Notes under the pieces: generated by a model
Database searches by the model: none
Seen by the model: only the letters and a program-made list of their open reading frames with translations
Told to the model about the DNA's origin: nothing
Shown: piece by piece, positions 4,432 to 8,122 of the stretch
Layout: each line of letters opens with the position of its first letter
How positions within the stretch are numbered: position 1 is the first letter of the stretch
Translations under genes and position numbers: made by a program
Origin: a virus
Reading direction: 5' to 3' (one strand)
DNA length: 25,748 bases
IMG/VR virus record: IMGVR_UViG_3300046484_000008
Coordinates: 1-25,748 of that record

Positions 4432-5112
4432 ATGACTTTCCAAAGACAACATAAAGAATATGTAACAACAGATGAAGATTTTTCTGCTACAAAATTAATT
4501 AGAGAAAAGAACCTAGCTAGAGCAAAGTACGCAAAAGAAGACAGAGATAATGAAGCAGATCCAAAACTCCTGAAGAAAGCAAATCAGATTGTAACACGTC
4601 CCATCACAAGATTATACAAACCAGGCCGCCCTCGAAAATTTACACCAACTAAACTTAGAAACAGAATCAACGATTATTTCTGCGATTGTGAAAAACGAGA
4701 TAAGGTTCCTAATCTGAAAGGTATGATGTTGTATCTTAAACTTAACCCGCAGTCCGCTTATTCCTACGCAAAGTACACAGAGTTTGAAGATATATTCCAG
4801 CAAGCTAGATTGGTTATCAGTGAGTGGTTGGAATCTGATATTTACACCACCAAAGGACAAGGAGCAGCTACAGGTAAAATAGCTTATATGCAAAATTTGC
4901 AAGGTTGGAGTAACAAGACAGAAGTAGAGACTTCTCAACGAGAGATGACAGTAGAGGAAGCTAGGGCTAAAATAGAGGCAGCGGCTCCAGCTATTCTTGA
5001 AATGTTGAAGAACAATCCAGAATTACTTGCTGCTTTGCTTCCAAAACAGTTATCTTCAGATAACAACCAATTAGATGTTGTAGTAACTGAGAGCGAGGAA
5101 GTAAATGAGTAA
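4432..5112 (+). CDS. terS: terminase small subunit
   Basis: The small subunit recognises the packaging start site on concatemeric phage DNA and regulates the large subunit. This 226-aa protein has a basic N-terminal arm, a GRPRKFTP turn at about 65-72, a helical DNA-binding core (70-125), a stretch with the family-like pattern GAATGKIAYMQNLQGWSNK (about 145-163), and an oligomerisation helix, then an acidic tail. The layout matches the small terminase/DNA-packaging gp3-type family. Its last 8 bases overlap the large terminase gene, the usual terS-terL pair. An AAAGG ribosome binding site precedes the ATG. The pattern match and the position immediately before terL together give high confidence. 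Confidence 0.88.
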   Translation: MTFQRQHKEYVTTDEDFSATKLIREKNLARAKYAKEDRDNEADPKLLKKANQIVTRPITRLYKPGRPRKFTPTKLRNRINDYFCDCEKRDKVPNLKGMMLYLKLNPQSAYSYAKYTEFEDIFQQARLVISEWLESDIYTTKGQGAATGKIAYMQNLQGWSNKTEVETSQREMTVEEARAKIEAAAPAILEMLKNNPELLAALLPKQLSSDNNQLDVVVTESEEVNE

Positions 5113-7657
5113 AATATTAGAAACTCTTACAAAGAGTCTTGTAGATACTTACACCAATAAAAAAGATTATCAAGAACAGCAAGAACTAATCAAGGCTATA
5201 GAAGTTATAGCTAAGTTTCAGAAGTACAACAAGTTTGAGAGTATGTTTAGAGATGACGGGGAGTTTAGGAGAGAACTCTACAAGAAACACATGGAGTTTA
5301 TTAATGCAGGTGGAAAATATAGAGAACGACTCTTTATGGCAGGAAACCGAGTGGGTAAGGAATTACCTTATTCAGCTAAAGTATTAACTAAAACAGGTTG
5401 GAAAACATTTGGCGATTTAACTCTAGAAGATACTGTATTAACACCTAAAGGTAAAAGTACAAGTTTAGCGTATATAACTGAACAAGGTGTAAAAGATATT
5501 TATAAACTTACCTTTGATGATGGTTCTGTAGCTGAGTGTGGTTTAGAACATTTATGGCAATGTATGGGGCCAACAGAGCGATTCAGAAAAACGTACACAA
5601 AAGGAAATAAAACGTGGAATAATCCCACACACAATCAATGGCAAGTAAAAACTCTAGAAGATATTATTAAACAATCTGGTTACACACCTAAACCTAGACA
5701 AAGATTTTGTATACCTATAGTAGAAGAATTAAAGTACATAGGGAGAGAGCTACCTATTGATGCTTATTTAGTTGGTGTTTTATTAGGGGATGGCTCAACT
5801 ACTCAGCATTGCTGTATACACTCTAATGATATAGAAATTATTAACTCTATAACTTTACCATCTGATTGTGAGTGGGGTACTATATACCATAAACCTAATA
5901 CTACTTGTAAGAGTTACTCTATAAAAGGTTTGAAACCTTATCTAGAAGAAATAGGCATGCAATATACTAATTGTTACAATAAAATAATTCCGATAGATTA
6001 TTTACACTCCAATGTCCGATTAGCCGTTCTACAAGGATTAATGGATACTGATGGATACACGGATGGACACAGACATGAATTTGTTTCAGTATCAGAGCAG
6101 TTAGCTAAAGACGTTGTTCAATTATGTTATTCCTTAGGTATTAAATGCTCTTTAACTGAAAAGAAAACTATATGGAAATATAAAGGTACTAGAAAGGAGT
6201 CAAAGGCATGGCGTGTTTCTATATGGAGCACATCAGTACCTTTATTTAGATTAACTAGAAAAAAAGATAAGCAGATATTAGATGCGCAAAAGAAGAATGG
6301 AGAATATCGTATATTAGTCTCTATTGAAAAAGTTAGACAGGAACAAGCTAGATGTATTGCGCTTACAGATGAAGAACACTTATTTATAACTAATGATTAT
6401 GTGGTAACTCATAATTCAGAACTTGGTGCTTTTGAACTTACTTGCCATGCTACAGGAAATTACCCCCCTTGGTGGGAAGGTAAGAGATTTACTAGACCAA
6501 TTCAGGCATGGGTAGGCGGCGACACATCCATTACAGTTCGGGATATTTTACAGCGCAAGCTATTGGGGGATATAGGTGACCTTGGATCAGGAATGTTACG
6601 AAAGGATGATATCGTGGAGACTAAGACGCGCCGCAATCTACCTGATGCTATCGAAACAATCCGCGTCAGACATAGATCGGGAGGAGTATCTACGATTGTA
6701 CTTAAAACATACGAACAAGGCAGAGAAGTTTGGCAAGGAACTGAGCAAGATATTATCTGGCTAGACGAAGAACCGCCTGTAGATATTTATTCAGAAGCTC
6801 TTATAAGAACCATGACAACTAACGGTATTGTCATGCTTACCTTTACACCTCTTCGCGGTCTTTCCCAGGTTGTTCTTTCTTTTATGGAGAACGATCACCA
6901 AGCAAAAGACAGCGCAAGCAAGTACACAGTTATAGCAACTTGGGATGATGTACCACATCTTTCTCAACAAGCAAAGGATGAGTTACTCCAAACTATACCA
7001 ATAAACGAAAGAAAAGCTAGATCTGAGGGTATTCCTAGAATTGGCTATGGTATGATCTACCCTGTGGATTTAGATGAGGTTATAACCAAAGATATAGCAG
7101 TTCCTAAATTCTGGCCTAAAGCTTTTGCACTAGATGTTGGGTGGAACAGAACGGCGGCTCTTTGGGGAGCTTTGAACAGAGAAACAGATACCCTCTATAT
7201 TTATTCAGAACACTATGCAGGAGAACAGGAACCTCTTTTACACGCCAAAGCTATCAAAGCAAGGGGTGCTTGGATACGGGGAGTAGTAGATCCTGCTGCT
7301 AGGGGGCGTTCTCAGGTAGATGGGCAGAGACTTTTCGATATCTATGCTCTTTCAGAGGAAAGAGGCGGTTGTGGTCTTAAATTGGGTCTAGCAGAAAATG
7401 CTGTAGAGTCGGGAATATACGAGGTTTGGCAAAGATTTCAAACAGGGCGATTAAAGATTTTTAAATCTTGTCCGAATTTAATTAAAGAACTATCTCTTTA
7501 TCACAGAAATGAAAAAGGAGATATAGTAAAAAGAGATGACCACCTTGTAGACTGTCTGAGATATCTTATTGTTTCTGGTTTAAAAGTAGCTTCTTGCCAA
7601 ATAGAACAGATAGGAATGAAAAAAGATATCAAGGTTGATTACGCGGCCTGGTGTTAG
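5105..7657 (+). CDS. terL: terminase large subunit, intein-containing precursor
   Basis: TerL is the ATP-driven packaging motor and headful nuclease. The 850-aa frame is a precursor. Residues 1-85 and 438-850 (498 aa after splicing, a normal terL size) are terminase; residues 86-437 are an intein. Splicing joins GNRVGK to SELGAFE and restores the Walker A loop GNRVGKS. Walker B is IIWLDEEP with Asp554-Glu555. The RNase H-like nuclease domain has LDVGWN (Asp677), VVDPAA (Asp729) and RDDHLVDCLRY (Asp811, Asp812, Asp816). The gene overlaps terS by 8 bases. Without splicing the ATPase should be dead, because the P-loop is split between Lys and Ser. Numbers refer to the precursor. Confidence 0.95.
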   Translation: MSKILETLTKSLVDTYTNKKDYQEQQELIKAIEVIAKFQKYNKFESMFRDDGEFRRELYKKHMEFINAGGKYRERLFMAGNRVGKELPYSAKVLTKTGWKTFGDLTLEDTVLTPKGKSTSLAYITEQGVKDIYKLTFDDGSVAECGLEHLWQCMGPTERFRKTYTKGNKTWNNPTHNQWQVKTLEDIIKQSGYTPKPRQRFCIPIVEELKYIGRELPIDAYLVGVLLGDGSTTQHCCIHSNDIEIINSITLPSDCEWGTIYHKPNTTCKSYSIKGLKPYLEEIGMQYTNCYNKIIPIDYLHSNVRLAVLQGLMDTDGYTDGHRHEFVSVSEQLAKDVVQLCYSLGIKCSLTEKKTIWKYKGTRKESKAWRVSIWSTSVPLFRLTRKKDKQILDAQKKNGEYRILVSIEKVRQEQARCIALTDEEHLFITNDYVVTHNSELGAFELTCHATGNYPPWWEGKRFTRPIQAWVGGDTSITVRDILQRKLLGDIGDLGSGMLRKDDIVETKTRRNLPDAIETIRVRHRSGGVSTIVLKTYEQGREVWQGTEQDIIWLDEEPPVDIYSEALIRTMTTNGIVMLTFTPLRGLSQVVLSFMENDHQAKDSASKYTVIATWDDVPHLSQQAKDELLQTIPINERKARSEGIPRIGYGMIYPVDLDEVITKDIAVPKFWPKAFALDVGWNRTAALWGALNRETDTLYIYSEHYAGEQEPLLHAKAIKARGAWIRGVVDPAARGRSQVDGQRLFDIYALSEERGGCGLKLGLAENAVESGIYEVWQRFQTGRLKIFKSCPNLIKELSLYHRNEKGDIVKRDDHLVDCLRYLIVSGLKVASCQIEQIGMKKDIKVDYAAWC
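5360..6415 (+). mobile_element. class 3-type intein with LAGLIDADG homing endonuclease, in terL P-loop
   Basis: The 352-aa insertion begins ELPYSAKVLTKTGW and ends VVTHN before Ser438, the +1 residue. Intein block A is clear except that its first residue is Glu, not Cys, Ser or Ala. Block B ends EHLWQC with Trp66, block F is ARCIALTDEEH with Cys332, and block G has Thr350 in VVTHN (intein numbering). Trp, Cys and Thr at these places are the WCT signature of class 3 inteins, which use the block F Cys as first nucleophile. Two LAGLIDADG dodecapeptides, VGVLLGDG (Asp144) and QGLMDTDG (Asp231), suggest an active homing endonuclease. The exact start is set by the need to rebuild GNRVGKS. The frame is intact throughout. 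Confidence 0.93.
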
Positions 7658-7687: not shown

Positions 7688-8122
7688 ATGGCAAATCCTA
7701 AAATAGTTATGAAAAAAGCTTTAGATTCTGATAATGACTATGATAATAGTCCCCCTTCAGAGCCTTTTATCTGCGAATTGATCTCAAAAGCCTTCACTAC
7801 ACGTAATTTGCTCCATTTTGCTCACTGGAACACCAAGTCTTTCTCGCAACATATGGCTTTAGGGGATTTGTACGATGATATTATTAGTGATATTGATGAT
7901 ATTGTTGAGTCTTACCAGGGGAAGAACGGACTTATAGACGATCTTTGCACTGATGAAGCTGAATTGACCCCTGATATAGTGAAAAGGGTTAAAGATGAGG
8001 CTAAATGGGTGGAAGATAGTCGTTCTGCTATTAGTGGAGGCGATCCTACTATAGAAAGTCTTATAGATATTCTTGTAGCTCATTATTACAGAACAATTTA
8101 TAAACTAGAGAATCTTGCTTAA
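7688..8122 (+). CDS. ferritin-like/DUF5856-like phage protein, 144 aa
   Basis: The protein has the pattern LLHFAHWNTKSFSQHMALGDLYD (about 41-63) followed by IDDIVESYQGKNG, with His and Glu/Asp spaced as in Dps/ferritin-like four-helix bundles. A further helix with LVAHYYRTIYKL lies near the C-terminus. Small proteins with this H-x2-HW...H...E.YQG arrangement are common in phages and are labelled DUF5856 as far as I recall. Whether they bind metal or form a shell is not established. A GGAGAAA ribosome binding site precedes the ATG. The gene sits between terL and portal, an unexpected but intact position, so it is late-expressed. Confidence 0.75.
   Translation: MANPKIVMKKALDSDNDYDNSPPSEPFICELISKAFTTRNLLHFAHWNTKSFSQHMALGDLYDDIISDIDDIVESYQGKNGLIDDLCTDEAELTPDIVKRVKDEAKWVEDSRSAISGGDPTIESLIDILVAHYYRTIYKLENLA

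Follow-up and report, generated by a model that had tools for sequence, protein, structure and literature searches.

A predicted class 3 homing intein with glutamate as its first residue in the Walker A loop of a podovirus-like large terminase

RESULTS AND DISCUSSION

An insert that splits the ATP-binding loop of a phage large terminase and begins with glutamate raises two questions: what is it, and how might a working TerL be made around it? The locus lies in virus record IMGVR_UViG_3300046484_000008 (25.7 kb; the whole stretch that we analyzed, 25,748 nucleotides, is referred to as the window). Very probably the insert, which interrupts the P-loop of a podovirus-like TerL, is a full-length class 3 homing intein that would splice via its block F cysteine, Cys332. 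The features on which this reading depends are as follows.

5105-7657 (+), terL precursor ORF (850 aa)
5105-5359 (+), N-extein (85 aa), ending in the Walker A sequence GNRVGK
5360-6415 (+), intein (352 aa), from Glu1 to Thr-His-Asn
5360-5362 (+), Glu1, first residue of the intein (precursor Glu86)
5549-5557 (+), block B His64 (B:10) and Trp66 (B:12)
5744-6289 (+), LAGLIDADG homing endonuclease domain (approximately intein residues 129 to 310)
6353-6355 (+), Cys332 (block F:4), presumed initiating nucleophile
6407-6415 (+), Thr350-His351-Asn352 (G:5 to G:7)
6416-7657 (+), C-extein (413 aa), whose first residue is Ser+1

The terL gene and the boundaries of the insert

The precursor is encoded by one open frame of 850 codons without a stop or frameshift. 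Its product matches several large-terminase PHROG families as well as Pfam Terminase_6N (precursor residues 439 to 655, in the extein; E = 2e-19), and its closest annotated phage protein by tblastn is the TerL of EBPR podovirus 1 (49% identity). A small terminase gene precedes terL; downstream lie the genes for the portal, for a member of an uncharacterized PHROG family located where a scaffold gene would be, and for the major head protein.

About 30 intein-free relatives of this TerL read uninterrupted through Walker A, as ANRVGKTEG..., AGNRVGKTT..., or similar (AANRVGKTEGVGAYEVALHLTGN in EBPR podovirus 1 and AGNRVGKTTGGAYEMAMHLTG in MW202473). When GNRVGK is joined to SELGAFELTCHATGN, the product aligns to these proteins with a gap of at most one residue and the Walker A loop is restored, which places the junctions at Lys85/Glu86 and Asn437/Ser438. 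Because the empty-site TerLs fix the junction, the glutamate lies outside the extein and is intein residue 1; it aligns without gaps to Ala1 of most class 3 inteins. An earlier note on this DNA had placed an intein with a nonnucleophilic first residue at 5360-6415, splitting the Walker A loop between its Lys and Ser (GNRVGK/S). The intein-free TerLs bear this out, the codons give Glu1, Trp66, Cys332, and Thr350 as claimed, and the proposed sizes of about 352 aa for the insert and 498 aa for TerL agree with the ORF arithmetic (850 − 352).

In the C-extein, Walker B (LDEE), the TFTP motif, and the nuclease acids (DVGWN, DPAAR, and DHLVD) are intact by motif position; on this sequence evidence, a functional TerL after splicing is plausible. 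The G+C content of the intein (0.33; GC3, 0.20) is below that of the C-extein (0.42; GC3, 0.30), which fits a foreign origin but carries little weight, since the N-extein is also low (0.35).

Three other features of the window were noted. An ORF at 7688-8122 (+), between terL and the portal gene, encodes a DUF5856 protein that matches a PHROG family called "starvation-inducible transcriptional regulator." At 2407-2540, within overlapping low-complexity frames, the hexanucleotide GCCGTA is repeated in tandem about 22 times. A short ATP-dependent DNA ligase (286 aa), encoded at 112-972 (−), matches positions 221 to 502 of a 634-position PHROG profile and is possibly a minimal ligase.

Assignment to class 3

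Class 3 inteins are defined by Trp at B:12, Cys at F:4, and Thr at G:5 (PMC5222942, PMC7891396). All three are present here (Trp66, Cys332, and Thr350), together with the final His-Asn and a Ser at +1, where Ser or Thr is usual. Residue 1 is Glu rather than Cys, Ser, or Thr; in a class 3 intein, which needs no N-terminal nucleophile, it would be dispensable for the chemistry. A phmmer search aligned the intein to the MchDnaB1 structure (6rix; E = 1.5e-5), with Trp66, Cys332, and the final THN falling on their class 3 counterparts. Aligned through their N- and C-terminal halves, His64, Trp66, Cys332, and Thr350-His351-Asn352 correspond to His65, Trp67, Cys124, and Thr143-His-Asn of MchDnaB1 (numbering from PMC7664689). 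His340, which the earlier note had stated or implied, is present as well. Five of these positions (His64, Cys332, Thr350, His351, and Asn352) are invariant in a 12-sequence alignment, and Trp66 is nearly so. Among 93 class 3-type inteins, His B:10, Cys F:4, Thr G:5, and the final His and Asn are each found in 93/93, with Trp in 91; the +1 residue is Thr in 79 and Ser in 14. The WCT triad proposed in the earlier note thus sits at the class positions in all three block alignments (6rix, 12, and 93 sequences). A class 1 assignment was rejected on these residues.

The class 3 mechanism is published, with Cys F:4 obligate (PMC5222942, PMC4031507). On the model of characterized class 3 inteins, Cys332, activated by the neighborhood of His64 and Thr350, would make a direct attack on the peptide bond between Lys85 and Glu86; transfer of the N-extein to Ser+1 would follow, and cyclization of Asn352 would release the 498-aa TerL and the free 352-aa intein. 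Glu1 would have no nucleophilic part in this scheme, being one among several tolerated first residues.

We consider it scarcely credible that the insert instead follows a class 2 or new mechanism, in which Ser+1 makes a direct attack on the N-terminal junction or the Glu1 carboxylate is involved. The sole point in favor is that residue 1 is not Cys, Ser, or Thr. The class 2 inteins described, KlbA orthologues, have Ser at G:6 and a Cys+1 that attacks directly (PMC4031507), whereas the window intein has His351 at G:6, Ser+1, a TerL host, and the conserved Cys F:4, and its nearest relative has Ala in place of Glu1.

How unusual is Glu1?

We tabulated residue 1 in the 93 inteins, a nonrandom sample selected for resemblance to an alignment with the window intein at its head, hence biased toward relatives of that intein, and including two pairs of identical sequences. 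Ala predominates (n = 58), followed by Glu (12, window included), Ser, Asp, and Gly (4 each), Met (3), Leu and Cys (2 each), and Phe, Val, Pro, and Gln (1 each). Excluding the window, Glu1 occurs in 11/92. Five of these inteins lie in terL by Pfam or PHROG (L025, L032, L041, L063, and L096); that of L044 resembles L041 and has a truncated extein without a Pfam match. The other hosts are UvsX-like proteins (L042 and L048), SNF2 (L081), an AAA/UvrD-type helicase (L083), and DnaB (L086). Like the window intein, the Glu1 inteins with an assigned host carry the complete H-W-C-T-H-N signature, but they occupy different exteins or phages and share 32 to 37% identity with it where aligned. When column 1 was left out of the tree building, the Glu1 label took 10 changes, of which supported branches force at least 7, compared with 11.4 for shuffled labels; Glu1 is therefore close to randomly scattered on the tree. 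The suggestion that Glu1 is uncommon among class 3 inteins holds only to a mild degree: it is a minority state (12/93), but a recurrent and scattered one, and for that reason not a point of special interest. Change at residue 1 is evidently tolerated, as would be expected if Cys F:4 rather than residue 1 makes the first attack; it varies freely while the block B, F, and G residues do not, which modestly confirms the accepted mechanism.

Could Glu1 instead mark a decayed, nonsplicing intein? It does depart from the majority Ala1, and inactive inteins that retain most of the signature are known, which is evidence against our preferred reading; one example is Arth_1007 (PMC3196547). However, Arth_1007 lacks Cys F:4 and His B:10, both of which are present in the window. 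All catalytic positions here are intact, no frameshift is found, and other inteins with a complete signature also start with Glu. Moreover, because TerL is essential, a lytic phage would not survive with a dead intein in it. We regard decay as very improbable.

Two inteins with the class 3 signature (Trp, Cys F:4, and Thr), at 460-1512 of L005 and 1498-2565 of L084, begin with Cys; the N-terminal residue alone would therefore misclass both. The reported "Glu1" of AceL NrdHF (PMC7891396) was considered as a precedent and set aside, because it appears to be extein residue −1 (the native N-extein is SIRDE, and the intein starts with Ala).

Predicted fold and homing endonuclease

AlphaFold2, run with a 30-sequence alignment, predicted a HINT domain and a LAGLIDADG homing endonuclease with a mean pLDDT of 95.4. 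The best Foldseek matches in the PDB are the endonuclease-bearing inteins TliVMA and PI-SceI, with class 3 DnaB inteins and I-DmoI lower; the fold matches PI-SceI/VMA inteins over most of its length and class 3 DnaB inteins over the splicing half. Pfam (LAGLIDADG_3, E = 2e-8; Hom_end, E = 7e-6), conservation, and the Foldseek matches support the endonuclease domain. Two LAGLIDADG motifs with their catalytic acids, YLVGVLLGDG (Asp144) and VLQGLMDTDG (Asp231), lie inside the HINT domain; in an alignment of 30 inteins, Asp231 and Lys208 are invariant and Asp144 is at least 90% conserved. The endonuclease, which the earlier note did not mention, is apparently intact, and homing is a sufficient reason for the presence of the intein. 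As in characterized relatives, the enzyme would cut the intein-free terL Walker A coding sequence, allowing the element to spread. LAGLIDADG motifs occur in 82.5% of 1,701 class 3 inteins (PMC7891396).

Relatives and the question of regulated packaging

No close copy of the intein turned up when viral and genome contigs were searched with a single sequence, and relatives were then collected with an alignment query. By tblastn, a Vibrio phage intein matched at E = 2e-47 over 99% of the window intein, a similarity well beyond chance. Matches were found in 771 phage records, including annotated intein-containing terL genes (L011 and L013); in 528 records the match spans 80% or more of the window intein. 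Related terL genes carry inteins at the same site. The nearest relative, L018 (IMGVR_UViG_3300022689_000063; 46% identity over the intein), is of the same class, occupies the same terL site (ANRVGK/intein/T), and has the endonuclease; it differs in having Ala1 and Thr+1 where the window has Glu and Ser. The MchDnaB1 and Msm DnaB-1 mini-inteins (6rix, 6riy, and 6bs8) share the HINT fold, the His-x-Trp of block B, Cys F:4, the THN end, and insertion after the P-loop "GK" (PMC5222942), but they lack the endonuclease domain and reside in DnaB.

TerL is the commonest phage intein host, carrying about 40% of mycobacteriophage inteins; its P-loop Lys/Thr junction is a "classic" site, and phage TerL inteins include class 3 members (PMC5050341). 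The mycobacteriophage TerL1-a inteins also lie in TerL between the invariant P-loop Lys and Thr and have LAGLIDADG domains (PMC5050341), although mycobacteriophage TerL is of the Terminase_1 type, whereas the window extein matches Terminase_6N. The window intein adds another well-preserved member to the class 3 homing inteins of phage terL genes, real but ordinary; abundant relatives, a published Lys/Thr site, and a recurrent Glu1 all lower its interest.

Insertion between the Walker A Lys and Ser should block ATP hydrolysis until splicing, and mycobacterial class 3 DnaB inteins are reported to splice conditionally (PMC6195587, PMC7360933). Both points would suit a conditionally splicing intein used by the phage as a DNA-packaging timer, an idea equally applicable to any P-loop intein. 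However, the intein is missing from about 30 relatives of this TerL; its persistence is explained by the apparently intact endonuclease; class 3 inteins with an endonuclease have been suggested to be constitutive splicers and selfish elements (PMC7891396); and analysis of the window found no regulatory feature. We therefore give the timer very little credence. It is just as doubtful that an acidic residue 1 tunes splicing, for example to pH or metal, and so makes TerL maturation and packaging conditional in this phage. The best-supported reading, by analogy with known class 3 inteins, is of an efficient selfish homing intein that would splice through Cys332 and Ser+1, with its endonuclease aimed at intein-free terL.

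In several relatives, terL is interrupted at another place, near residues 245 to 250 at the ATPase/nuclease boundary, by unrelated sequence with stops.

L123, 1177-2501
L124, 2691-3249
L125
L127, 2149-2631
L129, 2053-2475
L038, 3090-3553
L134, possibly, after 3004

Rfam searches of the window and of the insert-bearing TerL relatives detected no RNA family, and no intron in the interrupted genes. The L124 interruption contains an ORF for an HNH_3 and AP2 endonuclease. This second site may be shared by free-standing homing genes or morons that split TerL in two, or by undetected introns.
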